Assembly: GCA_022841505.1 (NCBI GenBank)
Contig: JALHRK010000004.1
Location: 1-51,541 of the forward strand
Reading direction: 5' to 3'
Origin: Saprospiraceae bacterium
Lineage (GTDB): Bacteria; Bacteroidota; Bacteroidia; Chitinophagales; Saprospiraceae
Length of the DNA: 51,541 bases
A model generated the notes under the pieces. The model saw only the letters and a list, made by a program, of their open reading frames with translations, searched no databases and had not been told where the DNA came from. Made by a program: the position numbers and the translations under genes. Of the stretch, positions 5,615 to 50,692 are shown piece by piece. The stretch's first letter is position 1. Every line of letters starts with the position of its first letter.

Positions 5615-5747
5615 GTGTCTGTCTTTATAGCTCGATAGCTGCGTTATGCGAAGGGCCAAAATTGGTCATTTACGCGAGTAAACTCCCACTTTTGGCCCTT
5701 CGCACGCCTTGCTCTCAAACTCTAAAGAGCAGACACCCGACTAAATG
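5615..5747. repeat. Variable-stem inverted repeat, copy 1
   Basis: First of three related ~125-135 bp elements (others at 38998-39123 and 39446-39579). Outer arms GTGTCTG...TATAGC and CAGACAC, followed by CCGACTAAATGG, are conserved. So are the inner GATAGCTGCGTTATGC and GCCTTGCTCTC segments and the apex TTTACGCGAGTAAA. The inner stem GAAGGGCCAAAA (5650-5661) pairs perfectly with TTTTGGCCCTTC (5690-5701), and this stem differs in each copy while staying complementary. This copy lies between divergent miaB and the 2H phosphoesterase gene. A possible ATG for the latter (5745) falls inside the element's conserved end. No ORF or transposase is present. Confidence 0.9.
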
Positions 5748-17958: not shown

Positions 17959-17991
17959 AAACCTATAAGGTTTTCAAAACCTTATAGGTTT
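17959..17991. repeat. 33-bp perfect palindrome AAACCTATAAGGTTTT-C-mirror
   Basis: Arms of 16 bases (AAACCTATAAGGTTTT and its reverse complement) flank one base. Further copies are at 27723-27755 and, imperfect, at 41595-41626, so it is a dispersed element. Here it lies in the predicted purM leader, where it would form an RNA hairpin. Confidence 0.9.
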
Positions 17992-27722: not shown

Positions 27723-27755
27723 AAACCTATAAGGTTTTTAAAACCTTATAGGTTT
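27723..27755. repeat. 33-bp palindrome AAACCTATAAGGTTTT, second copy
   Basis: Perfect 16-base arms, as at 17959-17991, with centre base T. It lies in a 619-base gap without a gene that also holds a second palindrome at 27808-27828 and a possible small RNA. Confidence 0.9.
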
Positions 27756-38997: not shown

Positions 38998-39123
38998 GTG
39001 TCTGTTTTTATAGTCCGATAGCTGCGTTATGCCAGGCCCAAAAAACGGTCACTTACTCGAGTAGGCTCCCGTTTTTTGGGCCTGGCATGCCTTGCTCTCG
39101 GACGCTAAAAATCAGACAATAAA
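38998..39123. repeat. Variable-stem inverted repeat, copy 2
   Basis: Same architecture as 5615-5747. The inner stem CAGGCCCAAAAAACGG (39033-39048) pairs with CCGTTTTTTGGGCCTG (39069-39084), a different sequence from copies 1 and 3. The apex is TTACTCGAGTA. It begins right after the TAA of the SprB-repeat gene. With copy 3 it flanks the dodecin gene in inverted orientation. Confidence 0.9.
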
Positions 39124-39445: not shown

Positions 39446-39579
39446 CCCATTTAGTCAGTGTCTGTTCTTTAGAGTTCGAGAGCAAGGCATGCAAAGGCCA
39501 GAAAATCGGAGTTTACTCGCGTAAATGACGCTTTTCTGGCCTTTGCATAACGCAGCTATCGGGCTATAAAGACAGACAC
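39446..39579. repeat. Variable-stem inverted repeat, copy 3 (reverse orientation)
   Basis: Reverse-orientation copy of the element at 5615 and 38998. Inner stem AAAGGCCAGAAAA (39493-39505) pairs with TTTTCTGGCCTTT (39532-39544). The apex is TTTACTCGCGTAAA. CATTTAGTCAGTGTCTG at 39448-39464 matches the end of copy 1. It ends 3 bases from the stop of the CBS-pair gene and, on that gene's sense strand, the same arm follows the stop as in copy 2. Confidence 0.9.
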
Positions 39580-44589: not shown

Positions 44590-47500
44590 ATGCGTTGTTT
44601 TTACTTTGCTATTTTGGTGTTATGCCTGGCCATCAGTGCAAAAGCACAGGAATGTCTCCCCGGGACAGAGTGTGAAAGCGCACCCTATTTTTGTGGATAT
44701 GCATTTGAAAATAAACTGTTTATAAATATAGAATCCTGTTGGCATACGTCCACGCCGCCTTCCTGTATTCAAGCGTTGCACAATAGCAACTGGTTTCGGA
44801 TTGTTCCCTGCGATGTTGAATTGAACCTGATGATCAATGTGGAAAACTGTAACGGGTCGTCCGGGCTTCAGGCGGCCTTGTTTGACGAATGCGGACCTAA
44901 TGCAAACGTTTTGGATTGCTATTCCGGTGGGATTGCTTCTACATTCTTTATTAATGCGATTGTCGAACCGGGAAGGCCTTATTTGTTACAAATAGATGGA
45001 AACGAGGGAGATATATGCGAATACGGAATTTTGGTTCTAAGCGGGTTGGATATGTCTCCACCCCCGTTGAATATAGCGAATGGCGCGATCACAGGAGCAA
45101 CAGGGGGCCATTGTAATGGTTCCGGGAGTATTCCTGCGACCTTTAGCGCATCCTGGCAGGGTTGCGGAGATTTTGAAAATGGGGTAATTTGTTATTCGGC
45201 TCCCCCAGACAGTTGCAATGGCGTTCAATGGACTTTTCCCCCAGGCGCCCTTATCTTAGGCAACCCGAATGCCAATCTGGTCACGGTCAGTTTTCAAAAC
45301 GTTCTGGCCGGTACTTACCTGATCAAAGCAAAGCGCGCTGTTTGTCCCGATATTATGTGCCCCGACTGCTATTGTCCGGTCGAAGAACTCACTATGGAAA
45401 TTACAATAGGCGGTTCCTGCAACTACGATTGCGAAGATTTCAACGTTCCTGCTCCCCCCGGCGACGATTGCAGCGAGGCGCCTTTCCTTTGCGGGAATTA
45501 TTTGGACGGCTATTGCAGCAGCAATGCCGGCCTGGACACCGATAATCTTGGAGGGAGTTTATTACGAAATAGTGGATTTTTAAGACTCGCGCCTTGTGAA
45601 GCATCCGACTCAATCCATCTGCGACTTCGGGTTCGCGATTGCACCCAGGGAAACAGGTTGGTTTTTCACCTGGTTCGGGATGCCTGTGGTACGCCGGTAT
45701 TCATTAGTTCTATTACGGTTCTCAATGGCGCTACTGCTGATTTTTTTGTAGACAACCTGGTTCCGGGTACGACTTATTATTTAGTTTTTGAAGGCGGATC
45801 TTTTTTCTCAATATGCGAATTTTTCATTGAAGTTATTGCCGGTATTGGTACAGCTTCCCCCGGGAGCGGCAGCATTGTTGATTGCAATTGCACCGATGCC
45901 ACCATTGGAGGGCCGGATGAGTTGTGCCCCGGCGACATTGCTAATTTTTTTATTGCTTCTCCGGGGTTTTGCCTGCCAACCATCTCCCCTGACCCGAATC
46001 CTTCCCCCGGCCCAAATACCCGGCTGGGGAACGGGTATTTTTGCTGCCCTGAGTCCGGGGATTCGATGCGAATCGTTTGGCATATTCCTTCGGCTATGAA
46101 TTTCCTGAGCGACAGCGTGGGCGTTAACACCATTACGGTTCAGGTAGACACGAATTTACTGGGGATTGATACCTTGATCATGGATTCGGTCTGGTTCAGC
46201 TTCGAGCCGGTTAATTCCGGTCCTTTGGATACGCTGGTATTTTGCGACCCCTGCCAGGGTTGTTTTCCCGGAGTGCAGCCTAAACCAGTCACGATACGCC
46301 ATGAAGTTGAATTTTATACTTGTTTTTTAGATTGTTATGACCCGTTTTGTCAAATCGGAACCAGGGTCTTTTTCAATGAAGTCCAGGATACTTTTAGCAG
46401 CAGTTGCCTGACAGAGATCGTTTGGGTTTTTGATGATAGAAGCCCGCCTTTTGGTCTGATCACCCCTGCCCAACCTGTACTGACCTGTAATTTTCCAGCA
46501 ATAGCTTTGACCGCAACCCCCTTTCAATCCAACCTGTCTTCCGTAGCGTTTTCCTGGACCGGGCCGGGCATTGCCTCTGCTGCAAATGCGCAGACTATTT
46601 TTGTAGATGAACCCGGTTTATATTCCTGCCTGATCACCAACCTGCATAACGGATGTACCGCAACAGCTTCTAAAATGGTGTTTCGGGACATTTTTCCGCC
46701 AGTAGCAATAGCCAGCGCAGACGTAACGATATGCATCGGACAAACCACTAATCTTAATTCGACAGGAAGTAGTTCCGGAGGGCAATACGCTTATACGTGG
46801 AGCAGTCCAACGGCTACTTTTTCAGGCCCTAACTTAAGCGTATCGCCTGCGACAACAACCCAATATGAATTGGAAGTATCGAATGTAATTAATGGCTGTT
46901 CTTCAATTGACGTTGTCGTGGTAACCGTTATTCCGCCGGATACGTTGGAATTAGGGTTGGTGGGGATAATTACCTGCCAGCAACCCTGTGTGAATTATTT
47001 AGGAAATGACTATTGCACGCCCGGGGTGTACATGGTACAGACTTCCCCTTGCGAAATCAGCCGGTTTACTATTGGAGAAGACCTGACCATACCCACAGTG
47101 AACTTGCCGGTTGTGTTCTTGTGCGAAGGGCAGTGCTATCAATTTTATGGCCAGGAATACTGCTTTTCGGAACTTGTTATGCAAGAAGATAACTGTACGA
47201 ATTTTGTACAGCAAATCATTGTGATTACACCAGATACGATGGAACTGGGACTAGTAGGCGAAATTACCTGCGTGCAACCTTGCGTGTCTTACCTCGGCGA
47301 CGAATATTGTGCGCCCGGGGAGTACCTGGTTCCAACCGGCTTCTGCGAAATCAGCCGGTTTACCATCGGAGAAAACCTGAATTTGCCCACGGTCACTCTG
47401 CCTGTGGTGGCCCTTTGTCTAGGGGAATGCCATTCATTTTACGGCCAGGAATATTGCACGACAACGACGGTTTCCCAGGAAGAGAACTGCACCATTTTTA

Positions 47501-49434
47501 TTCAGGAAATCATCGTAAATGCGCCGGATACGCTGGAATTGGGCCTTGTGGGAGCAATTACCTGCATGCAACCCTGCGTGAATTATCAGGGCACTGATTA
47601 TTGTGCGCCGGGCACTTATACCCTGCAACTCAGCCCTTGTGAAATTGGCCGCTTTATCATTGAAGAAGACTCCGCATTGCCCACGGTGACCTTACCAGTT
47701 GTGACCTTGTGCGAAGGGCAGTGCTATGAATTTTACGGCCAGGAATATTGCACAACAACGACGGTTTTCCAGGAAGAGAACTGCACCATTTTTGTACAGG
47801 AAATCATCGTGAACCCACCGGCGATTGTTCAGGCAGGCTTGATTGGGAATATGTCCTGCGGGGCAACCTGTATTGATTATCTGGGGGGGACTTATTGTGA
47901 TCCCGGCCAATATGTAGATACGGGCGCCTGCGTGTTGACGTATTTTGAAATCGGATTTGTCCGCGACACGCTGCAACTCGGGCAGATCGGTACAATCAGT
48001 TGCCAGCAACCCTGCGTTTCTTTTATGCAGGATTTGTATTGCACACCGGGGAACTATACCGTTGAAGATTTTTGTACAGTCTTCCATTTCAGTGTTGGCG
48101 GAAACCAGGCTGCACCGGGAACCAGCAACCCCAATCTCCACTGCTTGCCTGATAACCATCAATATACCGTTAGTTTTACAATCACGGGTACGCCACCCTA
48201 CAAGGTGAACGGGGAAAATATTACCGGGTCGTATTTCACCTCAGCGCCTTATGCCAACGGCGCTCCATACGCCTTCGTCATCGAACAGGTCAACAACGGC
48301 TGCCAAACAGTCGTCAATGGTGCGCACGACTGCTCGTTTATGTGCAGCGGCAACCCGGGGGGTATGCTCCCTGAAGGGTTGGACGTTTGTATTGGATCAA
48401 CCGTACAGGCCTTTCCTGAAACCCTGCCCCAACCGGCGCCGGGCCAGGTGGTTCGCTATCTCCTGCATACCCAACCGGGGACGACGCCCGGAACCATCCT
48501 TGCTGAAAACGCTGATGGTGTTTTTAGCTTCGATCCGGCCACAATGGTCGCGGAAGTAACGTATTACCTGTCTTGCGGAATTGGTACGCTTGCCGCAAAT
48601 GGAGCATTAGATTTCGCCAACCTGTGTACGCGGATTGCGCCCGGCCAGCCGGTCATTTTCCATGCACCGCCCCGGTTTGTTGATATTCTGGTTGAAAATC
48701 CGACCTGCTTCGGCGCCAACGATGGCGCACTGAACGTACTGTTTGCCGACGGGAGCCCGCCACTGACTTACGCGCTTGACGGCGGCCCGTTCGGCAGCAC
48801 TACGCTGTTTGGAGGATTGACCGCCGGCGCCTACGACCTTGCCCTACGCGACGTTTATGGCTGTCAGACCGATACCTCGCTGACCCTGACGGAACCGGAT
48901 TCCGTTTGGCTGAGCCTGGGGCCGGATCGGGATGTGATTCGAGGCGAAAAGGTTTTGTTGCAACCGCAAACGAACATCACCGGCCCTGCTTTCGCCTGGT
49001 CTAATAATCAAAATACTGCTGTGCACCAGGGGCCCGATTGGTTGGTACAGCCAGCCTTGACGACGCTGTACAACTGTGTGGCGCAGGATGCAAATGGCTG
49101 TGCCGCCACTGCCAGCGTGTTGCTTACCATAAAATCAGGCAGCGTTTACTACCCCAACGTGTTGTCGCGGGGCAGCCAGGAGCCGGCTAACCGGAATTTT
49201 ACGCTGTTTGCACGGGAAGGCTATATTCAACAAATCAACAGCCTGAAAATTTTCGACCGCTGGGGCGGGCTGGCTTTCCAACGCAATTTTTTCTCCCCGA
49301 ACCTGCCCGAATTGGGCTGGGACGGCGCGGTTGACGGCCAACCGGTTAATTCCGGCGTCTTCGTTTTTGTGGCAGAAGTGTTGTTGTTCGACGGATCGGT
49401 GGAGGTGGTGAAAGGCGATGTGACGGTGTTGTAA
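44590..49434 (+). CDS. T9SS-secreted protein with Cys-rich tandem repeats
   Basis: A 1614-residue exported protein; the signal peptide is MRCFYFAILVLCLAISAKAQ. The N-terminal half holds Cys-rich beta domains (APYFCGYAF...NSNWFRIVPC; APFLCGNYLDGYCSS). An Ig-like module follows (ITPAQPVLTCNFPAIALTATPF...). Three ~98-residue tandem repeats plus partial units (about residues 782-1167) carry CxxPCVxYxGxxYCxPG and LCxGxCxxFYGQEYC motifs. A SprB-like repeat (PTCFGANDGALNVLFADG) and a CHU_C/type B T9SS domain (SVYYPNVLSRG...VEVVKGDVTVL) close it. Stable disulfide-linked surface fibres are a reasonable inference. The stop codon lies in a 60-bp palindrome. Confidence 0.9.
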   Translation: MRCFYFAILVLCLAISAKAQECLPGTECESAPYFCGYAFENKLFINIESCWHTSTPPSCIQALHNSNWFRIVPCDVELNLMINVENCNGSSGLQAALFDECGPNANVLDCYSGGIASTFFINAIVEPGRPYLLQIDGNEGDICEYGILVLSGLDMSPPPLNIANGAITGATGGHCNGSGSIPATFSASWQGCGDFENGVICYSAPPDSCNGVQWTFPPGALILGNPNANLVTVSFQNVLAGTYLIKAKRAVCPDIMCPDCYCPVEELTMEITIGGSCNYDCEDFNVPAPPGDDCSEAPFLCGNYLDGYCSSNAGLDTDNLGGSLLRNSGFLRLAPCEASDSIHLRLRVRDCTQGNRLVFHLVRDACGTPVFISSITVLNGATADFFVDNLVPGTTYYLVFEGGSFFSICEFFIEVIAGIGTASPGSGSIVDCNCTDATIGGPDELCPGDIANFFIASPGFCLPTISPDPNPSPGPNTRLGNGYFCCPESGDSMRIVWHIPSAMNFLSDSVGVNTITVQVDTNLLGIDTLIMDSVWFSFEPVNSGPLDTLVFCDPCQGCFPGVQPKPVTIRHEVEFYTCFLDCYDPFCQIGTRVFFNEVQDTFSSSCLTEIVWVFDDRSPPFGLITPAQPVLTCNFPAIALTATPFQSNLSSVAFSWTGPGIASAANAQTIFVDEPGLYSCLITNLHNGCTATASKMVFRDIFPPVAIASADVTICIGQTTNLNSTGSSSGGQYAYTWSSPTATFSGPNLSVSPATTTQYELEVSNVINGCSSIDVVVVTVIPPDTLELGLVGIITCQQPCVNYLGNDYCTPGVYMVQTSPCEISRFTIGEDLTIPTVNLPVVFLCEGQCYQFYGQEYCFSELVMQEDNCTNFVQQIIVITPDTMELGLVGEITCVQPCVSYLGDEYCAPGEYLVPTGFCEISRFTIGENLNLPTVTLPVVALCLGECHSFYGQEYCTTTTVSQEENCTIFIQEIIVNAPDTLELGLVGAITCMQPCVNYQGTDYCAPGTYTLQLSPCEIGRFIIEEDSALPTVTLPVVTLCEGQCYEFYGQEYCTTTTVFQEENCTIFVQEIIVNPPAIVQAGLIGNMSCGATCIDYLGGTYCDPGQYVDTGACVLTYFEIGFVRDTLQLGQIGTISCQQPCVSFMQDLYCTPGNYTVEDFCTVFHFSVGGNQAAPGTSNPNLHCLPDNHQYTVSFTITGTPPYKVNGENITGSYFTSAPYANGAPYAFVIEQVNNGCQTVVNGAHDCSFMCSGNPGGMLPEGLDVCIGSTVQAFPETLPQPAPGQVVRYLLHTQPGTTPGTILAENADGVFSFDPATMVAEVTYYLSCGIGTLAANGALDFANLCTRIAPGQPVIFHAPPRFVDILVENPTCFGANDGALNVLFADGSPPLTYALDGGPFGSTTLFGGLTAGAYDLALRDVYGCQTDTSLTLTEPDSVWLSLGPDRDVIRGEKVLLQPQTNITGPAFAWSNNQNTAVHQGPDWLVQPALTTLYNCVAQDANGCAATASVLLTIKSGSVYYPNVLSRGSQEPANRNFTLFAREGYIQQINSLKIFDRWGGLAFQRNFFSPNLPELGWDGAVDGQPVNSGVFVFVAEVLLFDGSVEVVKGDVTVL
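46935..48090 (+). repeat. Intragenic tandem repeat of ~294 bp (98 residues)
   Basis: Units begin at GATACG(T/A/C)TGGAA (about 46938, 47231 and 47525), period 293-294 bases, with two shorter partial units after. Each unit encodes two half-modules with CxxxCxxxxGxxYC. The DNA is strongly conserved between units 2 and 3, for example TTTTACGGCCAGGAATATTG at 47439 and 47729. Confidence 0.85.
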
Positions 49435-49483
49435 TTTCCGTAGGGGCAGAAAATATTCTGCCCCTACGGAAATTACAACACCG
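49424..49483. repeat. 60-bp palindrome with perfect 28-bp arms
   Basis: Left arm 49424-49451 and right arm 49456-49483 are perfect reverse complements around AATA. The core GTAGGGGCAGAA/TTCTGCCCCTAC is a dispersed palindrome (related to 15478-15497). The left arm contains the last codons and TAA of the 1614-residue protein gene (CGGTGTTGTAATTTCCG), and the right arm runs up to the convergent cysteine synthase stop. It could serve as a two-way terminator hairpin. Confidence 0.95.
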
Positions 49484-49484
49484 C

Positions 49485-50576
49485 CTATATCTTCAACGTT
49501 TGCCGGATATACCTCGAATATTTTCGCCGGTAAACCTTGTAAATGCGTTTGAGGTGTTGGTAGCTGTATTGTGAAGAATGGTGCAGGTCGTCCGTTGGGG
49601 TGTGGAGGAAGCCCTGTTGTTTCATCCAGTCGTCGTTGTAGATTTTGCCGAGGTAGCGGCTGCCGTGGTCGGGCATGAGGACGACGACGACGTCTTCCGG
49701 TGTCAGGTGCTTGCGGAGTTTGAACACGCCTTCTAAGGCGGCGCCGCTGGAATAGCCGAGCATCAGGCCCTCTTTGAGCGCCATTTGACGGGCACGGACG
49801 GCGCTGTTCCGGTCGGTCACTTTTACAAAATCATCAATCAGGTCAAAGGCTACGTTTTCCGGGATGATGGTTTTGCCGAGACCCTCCACTTTCCAGGGGT
49901 AAATTTCCGATTGATCCAATAATCCGGTTTCCCAGTATTTTTTCAGCACCGAGCCATACGCGTCAATGCCAATGACGTGGATATCCGGGTTTTGCTCCTT
50001 CAGGTAGCGTGCAGTACCCGACAAGCTGCCGCCGGTGCCTACGCAACAAATGTAATGTGTGATTTTTCCTTCTGTTTCGCGCCAGATTTCCGGGCCGGTG
50101 GTATAATAATGCGCGTTGGAATTGTCGAGGTTGAAATTCTGGCCAAGGTAGTAGGAATTTGGAATGTTCTGCGCCAACTGTTCCGCCCTGGAATAGTAGG
50201 AGCGAGGGTCTTCTGCGGTGGCGTCAGCCGGGCAAACCACCACTTCGGCGCCCATCGAGCGGAGTAGCGACAGTTTTTCCTGTGAGGCTTTGCTGGTCAC
50301 CGTCAGCACACATTTATAGCCCTTCATGCTACAAATCATAGCTAAGCTAAAGCCAGTATTGCCCGAGGTGGCCTCGATGATCGTATCGCCTGGATGAAGT
50401 TTTCCTTCTTTTTCTGCCTGTTCAACCATGTAGAGTGCAATTCGATCTTTTGCAGAGTGACCAGGATTGTAGGCTTCAATTTTTCCCAGGATGGTGCCGG
50501 GAATATCTTTACATACCCGATCGAGCCGGATTAGTGGCGTGTTGCCAATAGTTGCGAGTACGTTTTCGTAGATCAT
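49485..50576 (-). CDS. PLP-dependent cysteine synthase family protein
   Basis: A 363-residue type II PLP enzyme, cysteine synthase or cystathionine beta-synthase-like, which replaces a beta substituent of serine or O-acetylserine with a thiol. Motifs: IGNTPLIRL, PLP-Lys motif NPGHSAKDRIA (Lys44), SGNTGFSLAM (about 72-81), GTGGSLSGTARYL phosphate-binding loop and GLMLGYSSGAAL. A C-terminal tail of about 45 residues (HTPTDDLHHSSQYSYQHLKRIYK) is longer than in CysK and fits Bacteroidota members. An in-frame GTG at 50687 would add 37 residues with no motif; ATG 50576 follows AAGGAAA. A short leader ORF lies upstream. Confidence 0.93.
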   Translation of the reverse strand: MIYENVLATIGNTPLIRLDRVCKDIPGTILGKIEAYNPGHSAKDRIALYMVEQAEKEGKLHPGDTIIEATSGNTGFSLAMICSMKGYKCVLTVTSKASQEKLSLLRSMGAEVVVCPADATAEDPRSYYSRAEQLAQNIPNSYYLGQNFNLDNSNAHYYTTGPEIWRETEGKITHYICCVGTGGSLSGTARYLKEQNPDIHVIGIDAYGSVLKKYWETGLLDQSEIYPWKVEGLGKTIIPENVAFDLIDDFVKVTDRNSAVRARQMALKEGLMLGYSSGAALEGVFKLRKHLTPEDVVVVLMPDHGSRYLGKIYNDDWMKQQGFLHTPTDDLHHSSQYSYQHLKRIYKVYRRKYSRYIRQTLKI

Positions 50577-50629
50577 AGTTGTTTCCTTGTTTGCCTGATT
50601 AAGAACCGGCTGACTTAGGGAGTTTTCGG

Positions 50630-50692
50630 TTACAATAATACAGCGGTCAGTTTTCCGGGCAAAGTTTTCCGGATGCAAATTATACACTTCAT
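50630..50692 (-). CDS. Possible 20-residue leader peptide before the cysteine synthase gene
   Basis: A short ORF MKCIICIRKTLPGKLTAVLL begins with ATG at 50690-50692, 7 bases after a strong AAAGGAG ribosome-binding site. It has two Cys codons close to the start and lies 53 bases upstream of the cysteine synthase ATG. Strong Shine-Dalgarno sites are unusual in Bacteroidota. A cysteine-sensing leader is a possible role. It overlaps an in-frame extension of the downstream gene in another frame, so it may be chance. The remaining part of the 304-base gap (50693-50880) shows no clear gene. Confidence 0.3.
   Translation of the reverse strand: MKCIICIRKTLPGKLTAVLL

Follow-up and report, generated by a model that had tools for sequence, protein, structure and literature searches.

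In a 51,541-nt stretch of a draft Saprospiraceae genome (assembly GCA_022841505.1, contig JALHRK010000004.1, positions 1 to 51,541 of the forward strand; hereafter the window), two convergent genes are separated by a perfect palindrome whose center is a dispersed repeat of the double-foot REP kind and whose outer arms are found nowhere else among the genome matches we inspected. We consider it somewhat better than an even bet that the REP hairpin at these two 3' ends was lengthened by a replication template switch that copied its left flank. The support for this reading comes from the geometry of the site, from the conservation of the gene end that makes up much of the left arm, and from the flanks of sister repeats.

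A palindrome that includes a stop codon

We searched the window for inverted repeats with arms of at least 16 nt and a spacing of at most 200 nt. This search returned the arms 49424-49451 and 49456-49483, which are 28 nt long, 100% complementary and 4 nt apart; the remaining perfect pairs it listed have 16-nt arms only. Taken with the ORF coordinates, this confirms the perfect 28-bp-arm palindrome that the original prediction had described as including the stop codon of a 4.8-kb gene (Table 1). The palindrome begins at an ACG codon, the fourth from the end of the 1614-aa ORF when the stop is counted, and ends 1 nt short of the stop codon of the convergent 400-aa ORF. It occupies 49 of the 50 nt that separate the two stop codons and is in that sense the symmetrical spacer between convergent genes that had been proposed. 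Also as predicted, the mirror runs 16 bases beyond the core into the last codons and TAA of the plus-strand gene: on the left side, 11 of these 16 bases belong to the ORF with its stop, and 5 (TTTCC) are non-coding.

Table 1. Coordinates of the palindrome and of the genes that flank it (positions of the window).
Feature	Position	Strand	Details
ORF of 1614 aa for a large protein whose C-terminal tail (...GDVTVL*) is conserved	44590..49434	+	stop TAA 49432-49434
Left outer arm, 16 bp	49424..49439	+	last 11 nt of the plus-strand ORF including TAA, then TTTCC; likely original
Left half of double-foot REP core, GTAGGGGCAGAA	49440..49451	+
Loop AATA, 4 nt	49452..49455
Right half of REP core, TTCTGCCCCTAC on the plus strand	49456..49467	-
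Right outer arm, 16 bp	49468..49483		exact reverse complement of 49424-49439, non-coding; likely a derived copy
Convergent ORF, PLP-dependent enzyme	49485..50687	-	PALP, E 2e-76; stop TAG at 49487-49485
Outer palindrome, arms on either side of the core			CGGTGTTGTAATTTCC/GGAAATTACAACACCG

The 1614-aa ORF has a SprB repeat, scored under the family cut-off, as its sole domain match, and its last 96 aa have 39 matches in the genome of the window, a count that includes the ORF itself. The conserved tail may have a sorting role in type IX secretion. The convergent ORF resembles cysteine or cystathionine synthases, under the equivalog cut-offs. As its ending, LKI-TAG, is also that of the gene in two relatives (read by eye), the right arm begins in non-coding DNA.

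To compare gene ends, we used the best 30 loci of the longer match list; the end could be recognized in 21 of them, the window included, and could not be in the other 9. The 20 other homologues all finish with a C-terminal tail of the window's type, and a palindrome reaching into the codons is present at only one of the 21 ends, that of the window. The coding part of the left arm, GATGTGACGGTGTTGTA, is identical in the sole same-genus match, which reads GATGTGACGGTGTTGTAG and then diverges, has no palindrome, and continues into downstream DNA that is not homologous to that of the window. A homologue elsewhere in the window's own genome (C542) carries the same REP, beginning at its stop codon. 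Because the left arm ends a conserved tail and the same-genus match is without the palindrome, the left outer arm is probably the original and the right outer arm probably a derived copy of it. The expectation of a conserved coding left arm is thus upheld by the same-genus identity and by the tail in 20 homologues, while the companion expectation of a new right arm stands in a weaker form: this arm is non-coding, lies 1 nt past the intact minus-strand stop and is probably derived.

Folded as RNA, the segment 49400-49510 reaches -61 kcal/mol (z = -9.8; 0 of 200 shuffles were equally stable). With a simple consensus scan, no T-tract terminator was called at the palindrome on either strand. The outer arm is neither GC-rich nor provided with a T-tract, and for want of that tract a canonical intrinsic terminator at 49424-49483 is not supported. 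The 28-bp stem is shared by the two genes at their 3' ends and may influence termination or processing there.

The window holds other palindromes. Three imperfect ones of about 60 bp, at 5647-5704, 39029-39088 and 39489-39548, have similar centers, and their outer arms differ between copies and pair within each copy (ATGCCAGGCC/GGCCTGGCAT, ATGCAAAGGCC/GGCCTTTGCAT and TGCGAAGGGCC/GGCCCTTCGCA, respectively); these may form a second palindrome family. At 17959-17991 and 27723-27755 lie two copies of the perfect palindrome AAACCTATAAGGTTTT-N-AAAACCTTATAGGTTT, which differ in the central base alone.

The repeat at the center

Within the window, the exact 12-mer GTAGGGGCAGAA is confined to the two arms. 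Across the 7.5-Mb draft genome, the core pattern GGGGCAGA-N{0,12}-TCTGCCCC is found at 12 places on 10 contigs, and the reversed control pattern at none. The core is therefore a dispersed palindrome, as had been proposed, with a dispersal that is visible genome-wide and not inside the window. Ten of the 12 copies have an AATT center and are full palindromes at those sites. The dispersed element is the inner 28 bp (GTAG...CTAC), at 49440-49467, whose feet, GTAGGGGC...GCCCCTAC, fit the 5' GT[AG]G and the 3' complement C[TC]AC of a double-foot REP.

We also considered a longer dispersed element. Among the own-genome matches listed, no second place matches the whole 60 bp, and we rejected this candidate on that ground; the others cover the core and its near surroundings only, the longest being 42 nt at 86% (C542). 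Judged by these matches, the outer arms are no part of the dispersed element and are unique in the genome.

One own-genome copy, C3, lies in frame within an ORF (L009:720-1430), where it is translated as VGAENFLPL and sits between the HuH and Y motifs; read by eye, the motifs of this ORF are ...NHVHGIIEL...VGAENFLPL...WQ...YILNNP. The ORF matches the NCBIfam model NF047646 (REP-associated tyrosine transposase) with 49.8 bits and E 3.3e-13, which does not reach the curated cut-off of 80 bits, and matches no Pfam family at E ≤ 0.001. The REP insert may split the model match. On these scores we describe the ORF as RAYT-like only. The genome's Y1_Tnp (PF01797) matches are two weak ones (C308 and C197), and the C3 ORF is not among them.

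Three further ORFs with an in-frame REP are present in two other genomes (L139 in one, L222 and L264 in the other), and the Y motif of the L222 and L264 ORFs departs from the published list. The in-frame REPs occupy a similar protein position in these transposase-like ORFs (L009:1068-1095, L139:650-677, L222:1501-1528 and L264:301-328), with a core type, VGAENFLPL or VGAKNFSPL, that varies by genome. Overall, the 28-bp-type pattern is present in 8 of 61 genomes of the family. At L036 (own-genome C542), L143 and L348 (the last by eye), the GTAG foot of the REP supplies the TAG stop of the adjoining gene.

Passages of a study of TnpA-REP proteins (RAYTs) describe a subclass 2.4, reported from Bacteroidetes among others, with the motifs NHVH, WQ and YILNNP, with double-foot REPs, and with in-frame REPs in the transposase gene (Quentin et al., 2018; PMC6006769). 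Like the REPs described there, the window core has GTAG at one end, CTAC at the other and a long stem. Since a copy of it lies in frame in a REP-transposase-like ORF with subclass 2.4 motifs, we file the core, by its sequence, as a double-foot REP, a known kind of element. Unlike those REPs, the window copy has a further 16 mirrored bp on each side that come from the neighboring gene, and the same passages make no mention of flank mirroring.

Mirrored flanks at sister repeats

We collected 129 own-genome and public copies of the repeat, with duplicates dropped by flank, and used 58 of them, window included, in which GTA is present at either end and the flanks measure 40 nt or more; of those left out, 64 do not have GTA at both ends and 7 have flanks that are too short. 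Expected mirroring was obtained by pairing flanks from different sites (6,612 pairings among the 58 repeats). The mirror extends at least 3 nt beyond the GTA foot at 13 sites, compared to 2.1 expected, at least 6 nt at 5 sites, window included (0.1 expected), and at least 10 nt at 3 sites (0.02 expected). The 16 nt of the window are the longest of all 58. As none of the 6,612 cross-site pairings mirrors even 11 bases, we reject chance as the source of the window's mirror. Complementarity beginning at offset positions shows no excess among the 58 sites. A mirror excess that is contiguous with the repeat but not offset from it fits strand-switch copying.

Three of the five long mirrors have features of their own: L108, a Fluviicola site, has an A/T tract, an A7/T7 tract adjoins the repeat at L090, and both of these look terminator-like; L139, within a transposase-like ORF, is a run of trinucleotides. 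Given these features, terminator recruitment or repeat expansion may account for part of the excess, and the five need not all share one kind of event. We also examined a 71-site set from which the Fluviicola loci L108, L122, L133 and L162 were excluded and which may still include unrecognized Fluviicola sites. Here, 45 sites are without a single mirrored base, 5 mirror 6-16 bases, and 7 mirror exactly 3 nt, a count that includes two sites from one repeat cluster and for which no expectation was computed. Such heavy-tailed mirror lengths suit rare single events.

Within the window's own genome, a copy inside an open reading frame (C137; L033:1364-1385) mirrors 6 nt, GGCGGT, beyond a foot, with one mismatch. 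This copy and that of the window are the two in the genome with a AAAATATT center, and it has GGCGGTGTTG in common with the right flank of the window copy. Another copy, C301, mirrors at least 8 bases beyond the foot, but a contig begins with it, and it was set aside.

Mirroring of a different character is seen in Fluviicola. In a 78-site set, 35 sites mirror at least 6 bases compared to 1.8 expected, and two Fluviicola genomes (G079 and G081) account for 32 of the 35; mirrored flanks there are near-universal and terminator-like, mostly with an A-tract and a T-tract. At 52 sites of these two genomes (L224-L276), bases 1-3 beside the REP vary from site to site and pair in 52, 51 and 51 of the 52 cases (20-23 expected). 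At position 4 there is pairing in 46 (35 expected), positions 5-6 form an A/T tract near expectation, and farther out pairing is about at or below expectation. One conserved gene end has such palindromes in 5 of 13 orthologous loci (L284-L288, in five genomes), and GTAG feet in 4 of the 5; the cores differ, and arm bases are altered on both sides together. Ordinary hairpins or none are seen by eye in the other 8. At another Fluviicola site, L248, where two genomes have the REP, the mirrored 8 bp lie, except for 2 nt, outside the flanks conserved in REP-free orthologues, in which other palindromes occupy the gap. Comparisons of orthologous sites in other genomes yielded REP-bearing and REP-free sites and no unmirrored REP at a mirrored site.

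The Fluviicola REPs look as if they had been recruited as terminators. As the window copy has no T-tract and a unique, partly coding arm, we place it, on its sequence features, in the sporadic class. Mirrored flanks can thus be of more than one origin.

Origin of the longer hairpin

The model we favor starts from a core (49440-49467) that is a double-foot REP, one of the short palindromes linked to single-strand (HUH/Y1) REP transposases, residing at two convergent 3' ends. At its strong hairpin, a template switch would later have taken place during replication. A nascent strand that had passed through the left flank and the repeat would have turned back at the hairpin, copied 16 nt of the left flank, with the end and stop codon of the plus-strand gene, as a reverse complement, and rejoined the main template next to the minus-strand stop. 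The resulting 28-bp hairpin, which has no T-tract, would now shape both transcripts at their 3' ends, serving as a non-canonical terminator or as an RNase III target. What is observed at the site is a reverse-complement copy that is perfect and directly adjoins the seed hairpin; which event came first, which way the copying ran and the fold-back during replication are what we infer. The original prediction of insertion followed by strand-switch copying is accordingly supported in part: geometry, the conserved coding left arm and the contiguous mirror excess speak for it, but at the window junction we found no relative that has the repeat and lacks the copied arm.

Template-switch mutations have been described as making perfect hairpins in a single event (passages of Monttinen and Löytynoja, 2022; PMC8794818). 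Like the switches described there, the window has a perfect reverse-complement arm beside existing sequence; those cases are in RNA genes, whereas ours is at a REP between bacterial protein-coding genes.

Alternatively, the outer arms could be an older palindrome, such as a bidirectional terminator lying over the stop codon, with the REP inserted at its center. We regard this as unlikely, though it has precedents. REPs of the GTAG-tagged superfamily are palindromes of 20-40 bp found mostly between unidirectional and convergent genes, and three families of them, in three species, lie inside longer palindromes, termed targets, with free outer palindromes known in one species (passages of Di Nocera et al., 2013; PMC3733652). 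The window REP is likewise GTAG-tagged, between convergent genes and inside a longer palindrome, but the outer palindromes of those passages follow a family consensus, whereas the window's outer arms are genome-unique and partly coding. The two Fluviicola genomes, in which nearly all REPs lie between mirrored bases and A/T tracts, fit insertion into a pre-existing palindrome, as do the 5 of 13 orthologous loci described above and a homologue of the plus-strand gene (L330) that has, a few nt past its stop, a REP-free, terminator-like perfect palindrome with 19-bp arms that include A/T tracts. For the window, however, the older palindrome must have been perfect and loopless and have been hit at its exact center; a leftover loop would appear as offset complementarity, for which the 58 sites show no excess. 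Nor does the window's outer arm have the GC-richness or T-tract of a terminator, and no palindrome enters the codons at any of the 20 other gene ends inspected.

The mirror might instead have formed during REP insertion itself, if the 3' end of the hairpin primed fold-back synthesis and left an inverted copy of the target. The three flanking bases that pair at 51-52 of 52 Fluviicola sites, though they vary between sites, would be explained in this way, and so would the 7 of 71 sites with exactly 3 mirrored nt. Yet 45 of the 71 copies mirror nothing, and selection for terminator stems could also explain the 3-bp pairs; we find an insertion-coupled origin of the window's mirror quite improbable. 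The broader proposition, that REP insertion regularly leaves a mirrored flank behind, in most cases of about 3 bp, as seen in Fluviicola, and now and then of 6-16 bp, as seen in the window, strikes us as improbable too.

A stem built up by point mutations and selected as a terminator or as an mRNA-protecting hairpin would suit the position at both 3' ends and the very stable RNA fold, but the left arm is under coding constraint, all 16 extra pairs are Watson-Crick and no T-tract terminator is called there, which leaves this route very improbable. An assembly or amplification artefact, for which one could point to the 999-contig draft and to the repeat copy at a contig start (C301), is harder still to credit, as different unique sequence and intact gene ends lie beyond each arm, whereas a fold-back artefact should run on as the complement of the left side.

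The REP type, the positions that REPs take, REPs within longer palindromes and hairpin-making template switches are already known. What appears to be new is that a flank both unique and partly coding is mirrored at a REP, and that such extensions occur in measured excess; in the open literature, under the wordings we searched, we found no paper that joins REPs and template switching. To our knowledge, how REPs insert and what marks they leave is still an open question. Where mirror-copied flanks are in measurable excess, as at this one REP type, they provide a sequence footprint by which insertion, template switching and terminator recruitment could be told apart. It also suggests that a mobile palindrome can extend the hairpin at two gene ends in one step. 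If insertion-coupled mirror copying proved to be true, it would be an unrecognized insertion signature of single-strand transposition.
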